Part shown: piece by piece, positions 1-14,613 of the stretch
Layout of the letters: each line of letters opens with the position of its first letter
How positions within the stretch are numbered: position 1 is the stretch's first letter
Assembly: GCA_003601875.1 (NCBI GenBank)
Contig: PIYF01000003.1
Coordinates: 1-14,906, forward strand
Length of the DNA stretch: 14,906 nt
Reading direction: 5' to 3'
DNA from: Candidatus Bathyarchaeota archaeon
Lineage (GTDB): Archaea > Thermoproteota > Bathyarchaeia > Bathyarchaeales > Bathycorpusculaceae
Notes under the pieces: model-generated
Told to the model about the DNA's origin: nothing
What the model saw: the letters and a program-made list of their open reading frames with translations, nothing else
Database searches by the model: none
Position numbers and translations under genes: made by a program

Positions 1-264
1 ATGGTTTTTGATGCTAAAGTTGAACTTGACGCAGCCCGTTTAAAAACAGCTTTAGCTTCCTTCATTCTTCTGAAAAACTGGAATAGCCGTGTTAAATGTT
101 TTGTTGTTTACGTGAATAGAGAACTTAATGATGTTCTTTTAAATTTAACAAAAAGCTGGATTGACGGATTTTTCAGCTTTAATGACGAAAGAGATGAAAC
201 TGAAATTTTTCTTAAAAAAGTTAGAGAATCGTTAGCTGCTTTAAAGAATGACGTCTCTCATTAA
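1..264 (+). CDS. C-terminal part of an unidentified protein (probably 5'-truncated by the window edge)
   Basis: An open frame runs from the first base to a TAA at 262-264. The window happens to begin with ATG, but no upstream sequence is available to show a ribosome binding site, so this is most likely the tail of a longer gene. The visible 87 residues are a mixed alpha/beta sequence. They contain a hydrophobic strand (around residues 33-38, CFVVYV), a helix with LLNLTKSWID (46-55) and an acidic C-terminal helix. There is no signal peptide or membrane segment. I do not recognise the family. The last 24 bases overlap the 3' end of the convergent SDR gene at 241-1263, in the opposite orientation. 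Coding status is supported by amino-acid composition like that of its neighbours; function is unknown. Confidence 0.6.
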   Translation: MVFDAKVELDAARLKTALASFILLKNWNSRVKCFVVYVNRELNDVLLNLTKSWIDGFFSFNDERDETEIFLKKVRESLAALKNDVSH

Positions 265-1263
265 AACTTCCTTTAAGAGTTTATGCGTTTCTAGTAGATG
301 CTTATACCATTCAACGGTTCTCGTTTTTATTGTATCTTCAACCTTTCCATTTTTTAATGCTTCATAAACCTCCATTATTCCATCTTTAGGTGTATACTTT
401 GGTTTAAAATCCAACATGCTCTTAATTTTGTTAAAGCTCACGCGATATGAACGTTTATCAGGGCTTCCATACCATTCTATTTCAACTGGAATTTCCAAAG
501 TGTCCTTTATCATTTTTGCAAGCTGAAAAATCTGTAGGTTCTGCTCATCTGACCCTACATTGAAGATTTGTCCGTTAACTTTCTCCTTGGGGCTTTCCAT
601 AACTGTTATGAAAGCTCTTGAGGTGTCTTTCACATGGACGAAAGGTCTCCATTGAGTTCCATCACGCATAACTGGGATTTTTCCATGTTTGAATGCTCCC
701 AAAACCATCCCATTTATAGCTAGGTCAAATCTCATTCTAGGAGATAAACCATAAACTGTTGCTTGCCTTAAAACAGTAACCGTGAACTTTTCGTCAGCAA
801 GAGGTAGAATGTCCCTTTCAGCAAGCATATTACATTTTGCATAGGTTGTTAAAGGGTTAAGAGGTGATCTCTCATCTAAAAGAATTTTTTCTCTGAAACC
901 GTAAACACTGCAAGAGGAAGCTAAAACGTATCTTTCAACACCGTACTCCTTACTAAGCTTTGCCACTCGAAGTCTTCCCAAATAATTTATGTCGTAGGTT
1001 TTCGCCGGATCAAGTTCCCCTGACGGATCGTTTGACAAGGCGGCTAAATCAAAAACAGCGTGAACATCCTTTAAAATTTCCGGGTTAAACCAGCGAACAT
1101 CATCTTTAATGATTTCAAGGTTTGGGTTTGAAATTACATTTTTTAACGTTTCTTTTCCAAAGAAGAATCTGTCTAAGCATTTAACTTTGTATCCTTTTTC
1201 AAGAAGCAGTTGAATCATAACAGAACCTATGTAACCAGCTCCACCAGTCACTAAAACCTTCAA
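241..1263 (-). CDS. NAD-dependent epimerase/dehydratase (extended SDR family), nucleotide-sugar type
   Basis: This 340-residue cytosolic protein has the length and order of an extended short-chain dehydrogenase/reductase acting on nucleotide sugars. The N terminus carries the Rossmann motif GGAGYIG (7-13), and Asp31 at the end of strand 2 indicates preference for NAD(H). LAALSND (73-79) and SSCSVYG (116-122) follow, and the substrate-side region includes RQATVYGLSPRMRFD and the WRPFVHVKD motif. The usual catalytic Tyr-x3-Lys reads Tyr141-Ala-Lys-Cys-Asn145, so the Lys position is Asn. It lacks the Thr-Asp-Glu triplet of RmlB-type 4,6-dehydratases, so I call it an epimerase-like SDR rather than RmlB. 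The start is TTG at 1263, preceded by AGGTG with a five-base spacer. That ribosome binding site overlaps the stop of the upstream cupin gene (8-base gap), so the two are probably co-translated. The exact sugar substrate cannot be read from sequence. Confidence 0.85.
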   Translation of the reverse strand: MKVLVTGGAGYIGSVMIQLLLEKGYKVKCLDRFFFGKETLKNVISNPNLEIIKDDVRWFNPEILKDVHAVFDLAALSNDPSGELDPAKTYDINYLGRLRVAKLSKEYGVERYVLASSCSVYGFREKILLDERSPLNPLTTYAKCNMLAERDILPLADEKFTVTVLRQATVYGLSPRMRFDLAINGMVLGAFKHGKIPVMRDGTQWRPFVHVKDTSRAFITVMESPKEKVNGQIFNVGSDEQNLQIFQLAKMIKDTLEIPVEIEWYGSPDKRSYRVSFNKIKSMLDFKPKYTPKDGIMEVYEALKNGKVEDTIKTRTVEWYKHLLETHKLLKEVLMRDVIL

Positions 1264-1271
1264 TTTTTCAC

Positions 1272-1748
1272 CTACTTATGAGGAGGTTTATTCCAATCAT
1301 AAGGTCTACCTGTTCTAGGGTCAATTATGGTTGGGTCGTTCCATGGACGTCTTTCCTCATCTGGATTATCATAATCGTAAAGTCTAGTGACAAAATATAA
1401 TGTTAATGATGGTTTATAACCAACAGTTTTTGTTCCATGCCAATAATGACCCGGAATCCTAACAACTTGCAATTTATGTTCACTGGATAATATTTCGTCC
1501 AACTGCCCTGTCTTCTCGTCATAAGCACAAATTCTCATTGCCCCTTCCAAAACGAGGAAGTAATCCACTTGGCCTCTAAGATGTCTATGCCACGCTCTGA
1601 TTACTCCTGGATAGCTATATGAAATGTTTGCTTGAACTATCCATTCATCTCCAAGAAAGTTTTTCCAGTCCTTTCTTAAAGCTTCAGCGAAGAACCCTCT
1701 CTCATCCGGAAATTTTTTCAACTCATAAATTCTTATTCCCTCTAACAT
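1272..1748 (-). CDS. RmlC-like cupin, dTDP-4-dehydrorhamnose 3,5-epimerase family
   Basis: A 158-residue single-domain cupin resembling dTDP-4-keto-6-deoxyhexose 3,5-epimerase. Family signs are FPDERGFF (13-20), VIRAWHRH (49-56), in which Arg51 and His54 occupy the positions of the RmlC substrate-binding Arg and catalytic His, and TRLYDYDNPDEERRPWNDP (121-139), which matches the region containing the RmlC catalytic Tyr and the conserved E..wnDP. It is about 20-25 residues shorter than typical RmlC, and the strand after the His motif (GQVDYFLVLEG) differs from the canonical GKLVRV segment. It therefore belongs to a divergent RmlC-like subgroup, and the precise substrate is uncertain. ATG at 1748 is preceded by GAGGTG at good spacing. 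It is the first gene of a leftward pair with the SDR epimerase. Confidence 0.8.
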   Translation of the reverse strand: MLEGIRIYELKKFPDERGFFAEALRKDWKNFLGDEWIVQANISYSYPGVIRAWHRHLRGQVDYFLVLEGAMRICAYDEKTGQLDEILSSEHKLQVVRIPGHYWHGTKTVGYKPSLTLYFVTRLYDYDNPDEERRPWNDPTIIDPRTGRPYDWNKPPHK

Positions 1749-1754
1749 TTCAAC

Positions 1755-1760
1755 ACCTCA
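1755..1760 (-). promoter_or_regulatory. Shine-Dalgarno sequence of the RmlC-like gene
   Basis: On the minus strand GAGGTG lies six bases before the ATG at 1748. This fixes the start of the cupin gene and shows it is not leaderless. Confidence 0.6.
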
Positions 1761-1783
1761 GCTTCTCATATATTCGCTTGGTA

Positions 1784-1794
1784 AATTATTAAAA
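1784..1794. promoter_or_regulatory. AT-rich TATA-like element in the divergent rml promoter
   Basis: The 69-base gap between the leftward RmlC-like gene and the rightward RmlD-like gene contains AATTATTAAAA. Read rightward, its centre lies about 28 bases before the ATG at 1818, which has no obvious ribosome binding site. That is the spacing expected of a TATA box driving a leaderless mRNA. Read leftward, it would place the transcript start near 1762, just upstream of the GAGGTG of the cupin gene. One AT-rich site could therefore serve both directions. No transcription data are available. Confidence 0.45.
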
Positions 1795-1817
1795 GATTCC
1801 CACATAATTCTAAACTT

Positions 1818-2732
1818 ATGAAGATATTAATAATTGGTGGGAGTGGACTTTTAGGCTATAAAACTGCTAAACTTGCAGTTAAACTTAACCATGACGTTTT
1901 CATAACCTATCTTTTAAGACCTATGAAAATTGAGGGTTCCACAGCTTTTAAACTTGATAAATGTGAGAGAGATTCTGTTTTTAGTCTTTTTGAAAAGGTG
2001 AAACCGGAAGTAGTTATAGATACAGCGGCTCTTCATAATGTTAACTATTGTGAGGCTCATAAGGATGAGGCTTGGAAAGTGAATGTGGAAGGAACTAGAA
2101 ATGTTGCTGAAGCTTGTAAGAAAATCAATGGGAAAATGATTTTTATATCTACAGATTACGTTTTTGATGGAAAGAAAGGCTTTTACAATGAAAATGATGA
2201 GCCTAACCCGCTTAACTATTATGGTAAAACAAAGCTTGAGGCTGAAAAAATTCTGCGAAGCCTAGAACTTGAATATTTAATTGCAAGGACAAGTGTAATT
2301 TATGGTTGGAACCCCAGCGAAATTTCAGGTTTAAAGTCAAGCTCTGGAAAATCCATGAACTTTGTTATTTGGACATTAAAGAAACTTAGAAATAAAGAGC
2401 CAGTGCAAATTGTAACAGACCAGTTTAGTTCTCCAACGTTAGCTGATAATCTCGCTGAGGTATTGCTGGTTATGGCTTCTTCAAATAAAAGTGGAGTTTA
2501 TCATACAGCTGGAAAAAGCTGCCTCAACCGTTACGAGTTCGCTTTAAAAATTGCTGAAATATTTAACCTTGATAAGAATTTAATAAAACCAACCACAAGC
2601 GATGTTTTTAAACAAGTTGCTGAAAGACCTAAACGTTGCTGTTTGGATGTGAATAAAGCGGAGAAAGATTTCGGAGTTAAATTTCTAACAGTAGAACAAG
2701 GATTACATGAAATGAAAAAACAGGAGCCATAA
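1818..2732 (+). CDS. rmlD: dTDP-4-dehydrorhamnose reductase (RmlD-like SDR)
   Basis: This 304-residue protein is of typical RmlD length. RmlD reduces the 4-keto group of dTDP-4-keto-L-rhamnose with NAD(P)H, the last step of dTDP-L-rhamnose synthesis, in the cytosol. Visible motifs in order: Rossmann GGSGLLG (7-13); DTAALHNVNYCE (68-79), which replaces the usual AAYTxVDxAE; VNVEGTRNVAEAC (88-100); ISTDYVFDG (110-118) with the catalytic Thr112; and Tyr135-Gly-Lys-Thr-Lys139 as the YxxxK pair. A C-terminal region with VTDQFSSPTLADNLAE matches the RmlD signature for substrate binding. ATG at 1818 probably starts a leaderless transcript. The RmlA-like gene begins 44 bases downstream on the same strand. 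Closely related SDR reductases act on other dTDP- or UDP-ketosugars, so the family is sure and the exact substrate is inferred from the neighbours. Confidence 0.85.
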   Translation: MKILIIGGSGLLGYKTAKLAVKLNHDVFITYLLRPMKIEGSTAFKLDKCERDSVFSLFEKVKPEVVIDTAALHNVNYCEAHKDEAWKVNVEGTRNVAEACKKINGKMIFISTDYVFDGKKGFYNENDEPNPLNYYGKTKLEAEKILRSLELEYLIARTSVIYGWNPSEISGLKSSSGKSMNFVIWTLKKLRNKEPVQIVTDQFSSPTLADNLAEVLLVMASSNKSGVYHTAGKSCLNRYEFALKIAEIFNLDKNLIKPTTSDVFKQVAERPKRCCLDVNKAEKDFGVKFLTVEQGLHEMKKQEP

Positions 2733-2776
2733 CAAAATTATTTAATATCAGCTTAAAATTTACTTGAAAGGGTTTA

Positions 2777-3853
2777 GTGTTGAAGGGAATAATTCTTCAC
2801 GGAGGACGTGGAACAAGACTGAGGCCATTAACGCATACGGGACCCAAACAACTGATACCAATAGCTAATAAACCAATATCCCAATACGTTTTGGAAAGCC
2901 TCCGAGATTCAGGGATAAAGGACATTGCTATAGTGTTAGGAAATATTTTCCCTGAAAAAGTGAAAGAGTATTATGGAGACGGAAGCAAGTTTAATGTGAA
3001 AATAACTTATATATATCAAGGTAAACCGTTAGGAATCGCCCACGCCATTGGTTTATGCAAAGAATTTGTTGGGAACGAAAAGTTTGTTGTTCATCTCGGA
3101 GACGATCTAATAAGGGGTGGAATAAAATCCTTTGTTGAAGAATTTGAAAAATCAGATTATGATGGTATGGTTTTACTCTGCAAAGTGACAAATCCTCAAC
3201 GTTTTGGAGTAGCTCAATTCGATAGTGAAGGAAAACTTGTTAAACTTGTTGAGAAACCTAAAAAACCGCCAAGCAATTACGCCCTTGTAGGAGTTTACTT
3301 CTTAACACCGTTCATTTTCCACATAATTGGAAAACTTAAGCCCTCTTGGCGTGGAGAACTTGAAATAACTGAAGCATTACAAAAACTTTTGAACAACGGA
3401 AAAAAACTACACTATAAATTTGTGAATGGGTGGTGGAAGGACACAGGGACTCCTGAAGATATTTTAGAATCAAATAGGTTGATTCTTGATGAATTAAAAC
3501 CTGAAGTTAAAGGGACAGTTGAAGATCTAAAATCCGTTCAAGGAAGAGTATCCATCGGTGCAAACTCAATCATAAAAAGAAGCGCGGTGGTTAGAGGTCC
3601 AGTTGTCATAGGAGAAAACAGCATTATAGAGTCTGAAGCATATGTTGGACCATACACAAGTATAGGAAATAATGTTGTAATTCGAAGTGGTGAAATAGAA
3701 AATTCAATAGTTATGGATAACTGTTACATTGAAGTTGAAGGAAGAATAACTGAAAGTTTAATTGGTCCTCATTCAACCATAGTTACAAATAGTAGAGACA
3801 AACCGAAGGGATACCGTTTCATAATAGGTGAAAAATCAAAGGTGTTTACTTAA
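2777..3853 (+). CDS. rmlA: Sugar-1-phosphate nucleotidylyltransferase, long RmlA/StrD type with left-handed beta-helix tail
   Basis: This 358-residue enzyme probably joins dTTP (or UTP) to glucose-1-phosphate to give an activated sugar. The nucleotidyltransferase domain (about 1-240) has the signature LHGGRGTRLRPLT (7-19) with Lys24 in TGPKQLIP, the metal-binding LGDD (107-110), GELEITEA (193-200) and WWKDTGTPED (219-228) with Asp222. Residues 255-335 are hexapeptide repeats (IGANSII, VRGPVVIGENSII, VGPYTSIGNNVVI), a left-handed beta-helix. Short bacterial RmlA lacks this domain; StrD-like and many archaeal enzymes have it. The start is GTG at 2777, with an AAAGGG four bases upstream; a TTG immediately after, at 2780, would also be served by that site. 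Nucleotide and sugar specificity are not proven. The gene ends one base before the convergent Ogg2 gene. Confidence 0.88.
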   Translation: MLKGIILHGGRGTRLRPLTHTGPKQLIPIANKPISQYVLESLRDSGIKDIAIVLGNIFPEKVKEYYGDGSKFNVKITYIYQGKPLGIAHAIGLCKEFVGNEKFVVHLGDDLIRGGIKSFVEEFEKSDYDGMVLLCKVTNPQRFGVAQFDSEGKLVKLVEKPKKPPSNYALVGVYFLTPFIFHIIGKLKPSWRGELEITEALQKLLNNGKKLHYKFVNGWWKDTGTPEDILESNRLILDELKPEVKGTVEDLKSVQGRVSIGANSIIKRSAVVRGPVVIGENSIIESEAYVGPYTSIGNNVVIRSGEIENSIVMDNCYIEVEGRITESLIGPHSTIVTNSRDKPKGYRFIIGEKSKVFT

Positions 3854-11903: not shown

Positions 11904-13412
11904 TTATAGTCCAGCTTTCAATCTTCTATAAGTGTTGTAATCTACATATTCAATAAATGGGTTTTCGGCTTGATATTTTACAGTTAATTTTTGTCTTTTT
12001 CTTTTCTCCGAAATTTGACTTGTTGTTATAAATGAGTAAGCGTCGCTTCCAGCTCCTGAACCATAGCTTACCATTAATATTCTTTCATCGGGTTTTGCTA
12101 TATCTAAAACGGATGCCAACCCCGTCGGTGACGAACCAGAATAAGTGTTGCCGAATCTAGCTACTTGAATTGCTGGTAAATACTGTTCTTCTTTGAAGCC
12201 TAACTCCTTTGCAATTCTCGTTGGAAATCGAACGTTGGGTTGGTGGGGGACAAAGTAGTTTATGTCTTCCGGTTCAAGTTTAAGTTTTTCCATAAGTTTT
12301 TCCGCTGTTTTTCGTATATGTTTAAAGTATGCTGGGTCACCTGTATATCTTCCACCATGCATTGGATATGGTTCACCGTCTCTTCTCCAAAAGTCAGGTG
12401 TGTCTGAAGTGCATGAATACCACCCTTCAATTTCCGCTATGACATCTTGTTTCCCGAAAATATATGCACAACCACCATATCCAACGAAGAGGTCTAATTC
12501 TCCTCCCGGTGAATTTCTTGGAGCTGCTTGAGAGTTATCTGCTCCTATAACCATTGCGTATTGAATGTTTGATTTAGGATAACTGACGAGGGCGGCAGCG
12601 TCCTTAAACATGCTTGAAGCAGCTTTACATGCAAATTCTGTGTCAACAGCGTCAACACCTTGTACATCACCATTTTCCTCGCCGAGTTTAAGAACTTGTG
12701 CAACCTTTGAGGCTATGGGCTTAACAGCGTAAGGGTTAGACTCTGAACCCACATAGACTTTGCCTACAAGTGTGCTGTCAACTCCAGAGTGTATTAAAGC
12801 CATTTTTCCAGCTTCAACAGCCGCTGTTATAGCGTCTTCATCTATAAAGGGAACTGAACGTTCCATTTTTCCTTCACGAATTCTGAAGCGTGACGTGTAA
12901 AATCCATAACCAACTATTCCGGGTGAATCATACTCTTTTTTCGGCTTTGTCACCTTGTATTGTTGATGTGGATAATATTCATCTGCAAAAGTGAAGGTAA
13001 GAGAGATTGTTGGAATTATATCAGACTTATCAACGGAGTAGCGTCTTCTAAACCTTGGAACAACTTCTCTTCCCTCAAAACTTGAAAGGTTAATTTCATC
13101 TTCATCTTTTATCAGCTTATCCGTTAATCTTCCTGGAACCCTTATTTTTCCATCGTGAAAAGAGACGATTCCGTAAATGTAACTGCCAAGTTTTTTGAAT
13201 TTATTTGTTGGATTATTAATAAAAGTGCAGACTTCAAGTTCACCCTTTTCAAAGAAAAGGTCTATGTCAACCATTTTTCCAAAGCTTTTTCTACCGCATC
13301 TTCCACAGTAATCTCTTATCTCAAAATATTCTTTTCCACATAATAGACAACGTCTGCCTCTTAACCTGTCACCTAAATATGAAACCCTTCTCTCTATTGG
13401 TTCGCTACTCAT
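11904..13412 (-). CDS. DUF35 (zinc ribbon/OB) - HMG-CoA synthase fusion protein
   Basis: This 502-residue protein joins two modules. Residues about 15-150 are a DUF35 acyl-CoA-associated domain: a rubredoxin-like zinc ribbon with Cys22-x2-Cys25 and Cys36-x2-Cys39, then an OB fold (GELEVCTFINNP, then GSYIYGIVSF.DGKIRVPGRL). Residues 164-502 are an HMG-CoA synthase of normal archaeal length, beginning GIVGYGFY. The thiolase-fold catalytic triad is intact: Glu224 in YVGSESNPYAVKP, Cys262 in DTEFACKAAS, and His390 in FVPHQPN. Other family motifs are TSDTPDFWRR, RYTGDPAYFKH, FGNTYSGSSPTGLASVLD and SYGSGAGSDAYSF. The expected reaction is condensation of acetyl-CoA with acetoacetyl-CoA in the mevalonate (isoprenoid lipid) pathway, but the segment SQAAPRNSPGGELDLFVGYGG is divergent, so a different acyl substrate is possible. 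ATG 13412 is one base after the stop of the thiolase-like gene, with GGAAGGGG inside that gene's end as ribosome binding site. Confidence 0.88.
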   Translation of the reverse strand: MSSEPIERRVSYLGDRLRGRRCLLCGKEYFEIRDYCGRCGRKSFGKMVDIDLFFEKGELEVCTFINNPTNKFKKLGSYIYGIVSFHDGKIRVPGRLTDKLIKDEDEINLSSFEGREVVPRFRRRYSVDKSDIIPTISLTFTFADEYYPHQQYKVTKPKKEYDSPGIVGYGFYTSRFRIREGKMERSVPFIDEDAITAAVEAGKMALIHSGVDSTLVGKVYVGSESNPYAVKPIASKVAQVLKLGEENGDVQGVDAVDTEFACKAASSMFKDAAALVSYPKSNIQYAMVIGADNSQAAPRNSPGGELDLFVGYGGCAYIFGKQDVIAEIEGWYSCTSDTPDFWRRDGEPYPMHGGRYTGDPAYFKHIRKTAEKLMEKLKLEPEDINYFVPHQPNVRFPTRIAKELGFKEEQYLPAIQVARFGNTYSGSSPTGLASVLDIAKPDERILMVSYGSGAGSDAYSFITTSQISEKRKRQKLTVKYQAENPFIEYVDYNTYRRLKAGL

Positions 13413-13413
13413 T

Positions 13414-14613
13414 TCAACCCCTTCCTAAAATATGAACATAACCTTTGGTTCCGAAACCTTCCAATTCAAGAACGCAACCGTATTTTAATTCTCCATCAGG
13501 CTTAACTTGTCTTTCTCCAGCCTCCCCCTTCAATTGTTTATAAACCTCATATATTTGGGCTCCTCCAGTTGCACCTAATGGATTACCATCAGCCTTTAAT
13601 CCACCATTAGTGTTAACAAAAAGTCTTTTACCATTTATTTCATAATAACCCCTAAAGTTTTGACAGCTTACATACACCTTCTCCCAAGCCTTACCCCGCT
13701 CACAAAAACCTAAATCCTCCAAAGAAATCATCTCCATAAGAGTTGACTGGTCATAAAGTTCAAGAACCTGAATATCCCATAAATCTACACCAGCCTTATC
13801 TAAAGCATTTTTCATCGCTATTCTACTAACTAGAAAACCAGTTCTATCTTCTCTTGCTGGAAAAGTCAAATAATCAGTAGCTGAAGATGAACCTAAAATA
13901 TAAACTGGGTCATCTGTAAATTTTTTAGCAAATTCTTCACTTGTAAGAATTAGAGCTGTTGCACCATCAGATATGGGTGCAAAATCGTAAAGTCCTAATG
14001 GTTTTTTAGCGTTTCTCCTAGCCTTTAACACTTGTTCAACTGTTATTTTTCTTCTGTATTGAGCATACTCGTTCTTTAACGCTTGAATATGATTTTTAAC
14101 CGCTATCTGTGCCAATGCAATGTCTAATTTTTCAAGGTCTTCACCTTTTATTCCATATTTTTTGATGTAGGCTCTAAGCATTAATTCATGGTTTGCCTCA
14201 GGAGCACATCCAGCATAGTAGCTCCAAGGATCTTCAAGAAGCATGAGGTCGTCTCGAATTTTATCCCATCTATCCGTCATTTTCTCCATTCCACCGACTA
14301 AAACAACATTGTATCTTCCAGCCTGAATGGCGTTGCACGCGTTTATTAAAGCTGAACTGAAAGAGCGGGTTACCTCCATTGGAACATGGAGTTCTGTAAG
14401 TTCTGATAAGAATCCTTCCTCTAATCCAAGCTTATTTGTTATTGGAAGGAAATAATCTGAAAAGTATCCTGCCTCTAAATCTTTTCTTTCTATTCCAGCA
14501 TCGGAGGAAGCGTTTAGCCAAGCCTCTTCAATAAGCCTTTCAGGTTCCCTTTCATAATGCTCTCCAAACTTTGTTCTACCAACCGCAATTATTGCTGGTC
14601 TTTTACTTTTCAT
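13414..14613 (-). CDS. Thiolase-fold protein (archaeal acetyl-CoA acetyltransferase/SCP2-like family) lacking the catalytic residues
   Basis: A 399-residue protein with the full length and fold markers of archaeal SCP2-type thiolases: IIAVGRTKFGEHYER (8-22), VVLVGGMEKMTD (103-114), FAPISDGATALILT (211-224), LEDLGFCERGKAW (298-310) and NTNGGLKADGNPLGATGGAQIYE (334-356). However, the nucleophile region reads VPMEVTRSFSSALINAC (77-93) where active enzymes have a V-E-x-x-C-A-S-G type motif. No Cys is there; Phe85 is the best match, with a few residues fewer before the next helix. The HDCF/NEAF motif is Tyr287-Asp-Gln-Ser, and the GHP histidine is Asn344. Classical Claisen chemistry is therefore unlikely. 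ATG 14613 follows AAGGAGTGA. It is transcribed just ahead of the DUF35-HMG-CoA synthase fusion, so a shared complex is likely. It may be a scaffold or an Ltp2-like C-C lyase. Confidence 0.85.
   Translation of the reverse strand: MKSKRPAIIAVGRTKFGEHYEREPERLIEEAWLNASSDAGIERKDLEAGYFSDYFLPITNKLGLEEGFLSELTELHVPMEVTRSFSSALINACNAIQAGRYNVVLVGGMEKMTDRWDKIRDDLMLLEDPWSYYAGCAPEANHELMLRAYIKKYGIKGEDLEKLDIALAQIAVKNHIQALKNEYAQYRRKITVEQVLKARRNAKKPLGLYDFAPISDGATALILTSEEFAKKFTDDPVYILGSSSATDYLTFPAREDRTGFLVSRIAMKNALDKAGVDLWDIQVLELYDQSTLMEMISLEDLGFCERGKAWEKVYVSCQNFRGYYEINGKRLFVNTNGGLKADGNPLGATGGAQIYEVYKQLKGEAGERQVKPDGELKYGCVLELEGFGTKGYVHILGRG

Follow-up and report, generated by a model that had tools for sequence, protein, structure and literature searches.

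The thiolase-like protein described here is probably a pseudothiolase, i.e. a former acetoacetyl-coenzyme A (CoA) thiolase that has lost thiolysis and condensation and is retained as a subunit of the archaeal complex of thiolase, DUF35 protein and 3-hydroxy-3-methylglutaryl-CoA (HMG-CoA) synthase (HMGS). It consists of 399 residues and is encoded on the minus strand (positions 13414 to 14613) of a 14,906-nucleotide stretch of DNA from Candidatus Bathyarchaeota archaeon (contig PIYF01000003.1), which is called the window in the following. The gene directly downstream codes for a fusion of DUF35 and HMGS.

A thiolase scaffold without the catalytic elements

The open reading frame (14613-13414, minus strand) is intact, starts with ATG and comprises 399 codons. 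The protein is a member of the thiolase superfamily: it has the two-domain thiolase fold with the Pfam domains Thiolase_N and Thiolase_C_1, and its top sequence matches in the PDB are thiolases from Pyrococcus (7yvy) and from the Methanothermococcus complex (6esq) as well as ST0096 (4yzo). In a fold search, the top structural match was the thiolase chain of the solved thiolase/HMGS complex. A preliminary description of the gene had stated that the thiolase scaffold is kept, which agrees with the Pfam domains and the fold match. As the matches listed by the fold search are all thiolases and thiolase-like proteins, they reveal nothing further on function. The score of 237.6 bits for the NCBIfam equivalog NF053570 (acetoacetyl-CoA thiolase) lies under the curated cut-off of 600, a result that alone says little because a Cys-containing sister protein (locus L071, see below) also fails this cut-off (357.4 bits).

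Relatives were read in two sets. The 80 named loci are the best 80 of 119 found and were collected with the patterns GG[LR]KADGN and ExEGFGTKxY; fixation at positions 340-344 and 383-392 is therefore partly given by construction in this set. Due to this partial circularity, the count was redone on 54 loci identified via protein similarity or via HMGS (L011-L039, L073-L078, L111-L130; L128 has no thiolase), which represent 52 genomes, G005 and G034 having been read twice. The gene and its altered sites are:

13414..14613, minus strand: thiolase-like protein without catalytic residues, 399 residues
14347..14367, minus strand: shortened nucleophile elbow R83-S-F-S-S-A-L89, from which four residues including the Cys are absent
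14335..14337, minus strand: Cys93, a helix residue and no displaced nucleophile, according to the model and the variation among relatives
14188..14199, minus strand: E139-A-N-H142, with E139 and H142 identical in all 80 named and all 54 similarity-found loci; the loop is variable in Cys thiolases
13744..13755, minus strand: Y287-D-Q-S290, replacing His-Asp-Cys-Phe
13579..13590, minus strand: D342-G-N344-P, replacing x-Gly-His-Pro
13444..13467, minus strand: E383-L-E385-G-F-G-T-K390, replacing the oxyanion loop NVGGSG and what comes after

Measured from anchor HxP to anchor xxAL, the elbow lacks four residues compared to the normal thiolase of the same genome (HVPMEVTR----SFSSAL versus HIPATRTETACASSGAAL); the nucleophile turn reads TR----SFSSA, compared to TETACASSGAA in Cys thiolases. 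The preliminary description was right in that this region contains no Cys. The Cys has, however, not been replaced by another residue, as had been assumed; a four-residue deletion between the anchors removes the turn. The nearest Cys, Cys93, had been placed well along the following helix, and in the predicted model it indeed lies inside a helix spanning residues 85-97. As a displaced nucleophile Cys93 was rejected, due to its helix position, because L071 contains a Cys at position 93 as well as the catalytic Cys, and because it is not invariant (Y, T or S in 4 of the 80 named loci; Y or T in 5 of the 54 similarity-found ones).

The replacement of HDCF by Tyr287-Asp-Gln-Ser is confirmed by the codons on the minus strand (Y287 TAT, D288 GAC, Q289 CAG, S290 TCA) and by the relatives; that of GHP by Gly-Asn344-Pro is confirmed by the codon AAT and by the occurrence of N344 in all 54 similarity-found loci. 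The earlier codon readings, TTC for Phe85 and AAT for Asn344, were correct; R83 (CGC), S84 (TCT) and C93 (TGC) were verified as well. The number of three changed motifs was an undercount, as the C-terminal oxyanion loop has changed too (NVGGSG to ELEGFG).

The nucleophilic Cys of an acetoacetyl-CoA thiolase (EC 2.3.1.9) is missing: the turn is deleted, and no invariant Cys was found in the 80 named or the 54 similarity-found loci. In the named loci, a Cys occurs at position 93 in 76 of 80, at position 136 in 43 of 80 and at position 380 in 65 of 78 readable cases. Missing are also the catalytic His of GHP/HDCF and the second Cys of HDCF (SCP2/archaeal type); these positions are occupied by N344, Y or N287 and Q289 in 54 of 54 similarity-found loci. 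Finally, the GGxG oxyanion motif is disrupted: position 385 is Glu in the window as well as in 51 of the 53 readable loci, compared to Gly in 16 of 16 Cys thiolases. Judged by its sequence, the protein fails the catalytic tests of a thiolase applied here, and the catalytic elements are gone. A sequencing or assembly error was ruled out by identical changes in the 54 similarity-found loci, the 80 named loci and at least 120 database proteins (P0001 included).

In the similarity-found loci, R83, S84, E139, H142, R199, D288, Q289, S290 and N344 are identical throughout (54 of 54). The same is true for E383 and K390 in all 53 readable loci and for E385 in 51 of them, the others containing one V and one G; position 287 is Tyr in 52 and Asn in 2 of the 54. 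Of the named loci, all 80 agree in S84, E139, H142, R199, D288, Q289 and S290 and 77 in R83; position 287 contains 66 Y, 13 N and 1 C. The signature also extends beyond the class, to six genomes from four other families (L073-L078). A comparison of 26 sequences of the Cys-less clade with 16 Cys sequences identified eight columns that are fixed in both classes yet different. Seven are located in catalytic loops, where the E, F, H, G and T of the Cys thiolases correspond to R83, S290, N344, E385 and K390, respectively, and where the Cys and Ala columns are missing; in the remaining column R199 stands in place of P.

Pairing with an intact HMG-CoA synthase

The fusion gene begins one base past the stop codon of the thiolase-like gene. 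Its features are:

11904..13412, minus strand: DUF35-HMG-CoA synthase fusion, 502 residues, matching NF003274, TIGR00748 and 6esq
12948..13412, minus strand: DUF35 part, approximately residues 1-155, with the zinc-ribbon residues C22, C25, C36 and C39; zf-ChsH2 match (16-44) just under the cut-off, 6esq_E match at 17-89
12741..12743, minus strand: HMGS catalytic Glu224 (SESxPY)
12627..12629, minus strand: HMGS catalytic Cys262 (EFACKAA)
12243..12245, minus strand: HMGS catalytic His390 (HQPN)

The profile scores are 376 bits for NF003274 (over the cut-off of 244) and 328 bits for TIGR00748 (under the cut-off of 353). Comparison with the chains of the solved complex yielded 266 bits for 6esq_I (HMGS) and 30.7 bits for 6esq_E (DUF35). 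The neighbour is a predicted HMG-CoA synthase and as such links the thiolase-like protein to the known archaeal thiolase/DUF35/HMGS complex; the genes of all three components lie together in the window. As the triad E224, C262 and H390 is present, the synthase is predicted to be active. The E-C-H triad was likewise found in 76 of 76 named loci, in 29 of 29 further HMGS loci (L041-L069) and in 53 of 53 HMGS genes beside similarity-found thiolases.

The named loci belong mostly to Bathyarchaeia, including Ca. Bathyarchaeum tardum and Bathycorpusculum. The fusion lies directly downstream in 76 of the 80, with DUF35 in front in all 76; L144, L154 and L169 end at a contig edge and L180 has no adjoining HMGS. 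A survey of 61 genomes (that of the window and 60 relatives) detected the thiolase-like gene in 57, in full or nearly full length in 54 and in pieces in 3 (G012, G018, G050); it was not found in G031, G039, G040 and G044. An HMGS match exists in 58 of the surveyed genomes, 55 of which have one and three of which have two, and none was obtained for G018, G031 and G039. The single match is weak in G044 and has 50% identity in G040. The extra matches are broken-triad HMGS-like proteins in G010 and G027 and a 21-residue piece at a contig end in G017. Among the matches read in genomes with the cassette of thiolase-like gene and fusion, no second HMGS with an intact triad was found, some weak matches being unread. 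The HMGS of the cassette keeps its triad and is the only good HMGS in nearly all searched genomes.

Four loci from other families of the same class (L079, L080, L081, L083) have an HMGS of another type, in which the Cys is embedded in DxEGACNAG and the frames comprise 369 to 520 codons. The fetched stretch of these loci yielded no thiolase, though the genomes are closer relatives than some of the cassette-bearing ones; this pattern suggests transfer or differential loss. In other Thermoproteota families, L096, L097, L099, L261 and L266 have intact HMGS genes, and no thiolase was found in the fetched stretch.

Repeated loss of the catalytic Cys

The loci L071 and L072 have the same gene order and the same fusion, yet their thiolase contains EAACASS, HDCF and GHP. 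In a tree calculated after removal of the catalytic columns, they form the sister group of the Cys-less clade with a support of 100 (quick method, Shimodaira-Hasegawa-like approximate likelihood ratio test only); in a later tree the support is 99-100. Because L071 and L072 share order and fusion but keep the Cys, it was most likely lost after operon and fusion existed. Note that the tree is unrooted and that the direction of Cys loss rests on the Cys being the thiolase norm.

In 35 further neighbourhoods from the phylum, a thiolase stands beside an HMGS with an intact triad; 14 of these thiolases have the Cys and 21 contain D, G, E, Q, A, T or L instead. These loci were hand-picked for spread over families, so that the proportion is no rate. 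Left out were seven pairs with a broken-triad HMGS-like gene, L082 (too short), and L079-L081, L083, L086, L090, L096, L097, L099, L261 and L266, which have no thiolase beside HMGS. Both states occur inside two families, namely f19 (L250 with, L251 without Cys) and f24 (L100 with, L256 without Cys). The first tree of 59 sequences requires seven changes of the Cys state, three of them forced by well-supported branches; the later tree of 57 sequences requires five, all of them forced. The preliminary description had raised the question whether Cys-less forms make up a clade. This holds for the type found in the window, which is a supported clade with a Cys-containing sister; a single clade of all Cys-less forms is rejected by the approximately unbiased (AU) test (p 1e-7 for all sequences, 8e-58 for the set without THI_C16a). 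As read from these genes, the Cys was lost again in other Thermoproteota; how often this happened is uncertain because some branches are long.

In the Sulfolobales type, the Cys is absent from all 35 listed homologues whose elbow could be read (P0121-P0155), which include proteins of Sulfolobus acidocaldarius (P0145), Saccharolobus and Metallosphaera; P0156 also lacks it, P0157-P0159 are partial and P0160-P0240 were left unread. Adjacency to HMGS was seen for three (L106, L107, L263).

The HMGS triad is intact beside every Cys-less thiolase, 47 in total (26 from the clade and the 21 mentioned above). Conversely, the seven broken-triad HMGS-like genes (L084, L085, L088, L089, L093, L109, L110) all adjoin a Cys-containing thiolase, so that no pair in the sample is dead on both sides. 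In L085, L089 and L110 the broken-triad protein has a C-terminal DUF35, a reversed arrangement like that of PhlABC. Some broken-triad genes lie in genomes that also bear a Cys-less cassette (G120, G145, G183, G027).

Other thiolases and the possible source of acetoacetyl-CoA

A normal Cys thiolase elsewhere in the genome, for which a search had been suggested, is present: the genome of the window (66% complete) encodes one on contig C16 (L006 11310-12479), with its own DUF35 gene. A second thiolase was sought in 23 cassette genomes, hand-picked from the 57. A separate Cys thiolase exists in 20 of them, 19 being of the archaeal type and that of G001 of the classical PhaA-type. HMG-CoA reductase was detected in 24 of 26 genomes, which fits the use of the mevalonate route.

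The HMG-CoA reductase of the window's genome (G000:C8:5024-6130) scores 262 bits, compared to 361-404 bits in 22 of the other 23 matching genomes; a comparably low score occurs only in G039 (264 bits), where the cassette was not found. Contig C16 also encodes two further Cys-less thiolase-like proteins. One (L006 7959-9137, plus strand) contains SNGTASGGS with HDAF and GHP; the other (L006 9883-11172, minus strand) contains ESGGATPID with FNPY and GHP and lies beside an apparent long DUF35 gene. Both are near apparent methylmalonyl-CoA mutase genes (named by eye) and the normal thiolase.

Proposed role and alternative explanations

The preliminary description had deduced a real loss or change of chemistry. 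This conclusion is strengthened by the family-wide fixed changes, the lack of an invariant Cys, the Cys-containing sister clade and the normal Cys thiolase elsewhere in the genome. As a pseudothiolase, the subunit would still dock via DUF35 and would supply half of a shared CoA-binding cleft, so that HMGS may fold, bind CoA or be gated properly. The old pocket would be plugged by the set R83/E383/E385/K390/N344/S290, a charge swap compared to E/N/G/T/H/F, in which R83 could pair with E385. Acetoacetyl-CoA would be provided by the separate Cys thiolase, in which case the hand-over from thiolase to HMGS within one complex no longer occurs. The simplest account may be that HMGS still needs the pseudothiolase for assembly or for its CoA cleft. 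That a Cys-less protein is kept beside HMGS in many archaea and that the losses arose repeatedly suggests that a dead enzyme can survive as a working part of its partner.

Several observations weigh against this account. The loops of the former active site are more conserved than the rest of the protein (mean entropy 0.24 versus 0.97 bits, Mann-Whitney p 1.8e-8; 61 sequences, mostly collected with motifs that cover two of these loops). Seven of the eight class-fixed differences lie there as well, and a mere scaffold would not obviously need this. L180 (record CP070835.1) is a second Cys-less thiolase copy in the same record as L187 and has no HMGS alongside. Moreover, among the 23 genomes scanned, a second thiolase was not found in G013 (85% complete), G032 (93%) and G043 (97%). 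HMG-CoA reductase was not detected in G013 and G032 either, so that these two may simply be incomplete; G043 has the reductase and still no second thiolase was found. With a rebuilt pocket this strongly conserved, new chemistry or ligand control is a real possibility. It is possible, albeit doubtful, that the former active site was rebuilt and became fixed in Bathyarchaeia and several other lineages, where it would now serve new chemistry or ligand control over HMGS, other Thermoproteota having dismantled the same site independently. In the 35 Sulfolobales sequences, the elbow, HDCF and GHP loops have entropies of 0.70, 0.28 and 0.28 bits. Taken together, the loops are still more conserved than the rest (1.01 versus 1.50 bits, p 0.001), so that plain loss is not clear-cut there either.

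A rebuilt enzyme would perform new acid-base chemistry on a CoA ester, with S84, E139, H142, D288, Q289, S290 and N344 as candidate residues, and would feed or drain the HMGS step. These candidates are identical in all similarity-found loci, including the six genomes of the four outside families, and the loop conservation quoted above points in the same direction; in Sulfolobales, on the other hand, the lid loop (1.73 bits) and the oxyanion loop (1.25 bits) vary as much as the rest (1.50 bits). We know of no active relative with this residue set, a systematic search not having been made. The exchange of the oxyanion Gly for Glu385 removes a feature on which thioester chemistry in this fold relies (as passages of PMC6392133 describe for PhlC), and such an enzyme is unlikely. 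A pocket that is conserved yet catalytically implausible could also belong to a regulatory sensor, which would bind a ligand (CoA, HMG-CoA or a prenyl phosphate) and gate HMGS. The position next to the mostly sole HMGS of the genome, at the entry to isoprenoid synthesis, would suit this role; knowledge of the CoA site comes solely from the homologous complex whose structure has been solved, and the odds are clearly against a sensor.

For an aldolase of the Ltp2/Sal type, Tyr287 of YDQS would act as the base like the Tyr of YDHF/YDCY, and the substrate would be a beta-hydroxyacyl-CoA, possibly HMG-CoA. The incomplete conservation of the essential Tyr makes an aldolase unlikely: 14 of the 80 named loci have another residue there (Asn in 13, Cys in 1), and so do 2 of the 54 similarity-found loci (Asn). 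In addition, Gln289 takes the place of Cys304 of Sal (motifs aligned by eye from passages of PMC12329534) and the neighbour is a synthase, no hydratase, which leaves very little in favour of this function. Equally hard to credit is a Cys-independent acetoacetyl-CoA thiolase, which would catalyze a direct Claisen condensation without an acyl-enzyme. The protein does occupy the place of the thiolase in the complex, and in three cassette genomes, one of them with HMG-CoA reductase, no other thiolase was found. However, the second Cys, the His and the oxyanion glycine are also gone, and a Cys thiolase is kept in 20 of the 23 genomes examined.

Comparison with known systems

In the complex of Methanothermococcus thermolithotrophicus (6esq, 6et9), the thiolase subunit keeps its active Cys85 (passages of PMC6392133). 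In contrast, the Cys turn, HDCF, GHP and GGxG are changed in the protein studied here, and HMGS has DUF35 fused to its N-terminus. The Friedel-Crafts acylase PhlABC (5m3k) has the same three-part architecture with one ketosynthase-type subunit that lacks catalytic residues. It is a mirror image, as HMGS-like PhlA lacks Cys and Glu and PhlC works (same source, in part), whereas here HMGS is intact and the thiolase is changed. The steroid aldolases Ltp2/Sal (6ok1, 9myr) share a thiolase fold without nucleophile, a YD motif and a DUF35 partner (passages of PMC12329534). Their essential YDxx Tyr is present in the window (Y287) but differs in 14 of 80 named loci; their DUF35 partner is joined to a hydratase and not to HMGS, and their fold score is lower (about 41 versus 49). 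ST0096 of Sulfolobus tokodaii (4yzo) is likewise thiolase-like without a nucleophile (SGSGG at the elbow), but keeps GHP and HD and has neither the four-residue deletion nor GNP. TbSLP (5ab4-5ab7), also without nucleophile, differs by YDCF (PMC12329534, in part).

According to passages of PMC12329534, the solved methanogen complex has a CoA site that both thiolase and HMGS use, without any release of acetoacetyl-CoA. In Bathyarchaeia, Sulfolobales and other Thermoproteota, this hand-over would be impossible if their thiolase subunit is dead, yet the gene is kept beside HMGS, which raises the question of what a catalytically dead thiolase does for HMG-CoA synthase. In the original paper on the complex, the hand-over without release is said to help the unfavourable first condensation. 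If the former active site has indeed become a rebuilt module, archaea would not generally overcome this unfavourable step by thiolase-to-HMGS substrate channelling. Sulfolobus acidocaldarius is genetically tractable, and as it carries the Cys-less protein P0145, the question can be addressed in this archaeon. No published description of Cys-less thiolases as HMGS partners was recognised in the literature searched; a remark in the original complex paper (PMC5879682) is possible. Some Cys-less genes are named acetyl-CoA C-acetyltransferase, which is likely a misannotation.

At the other end of the window (241-3853, both strands), sugar-nucleotide genes resemble a set of the dTDP-rhamnose type (epimerases, reductase, nucleotidyltransferase), as named by eye from the translations.
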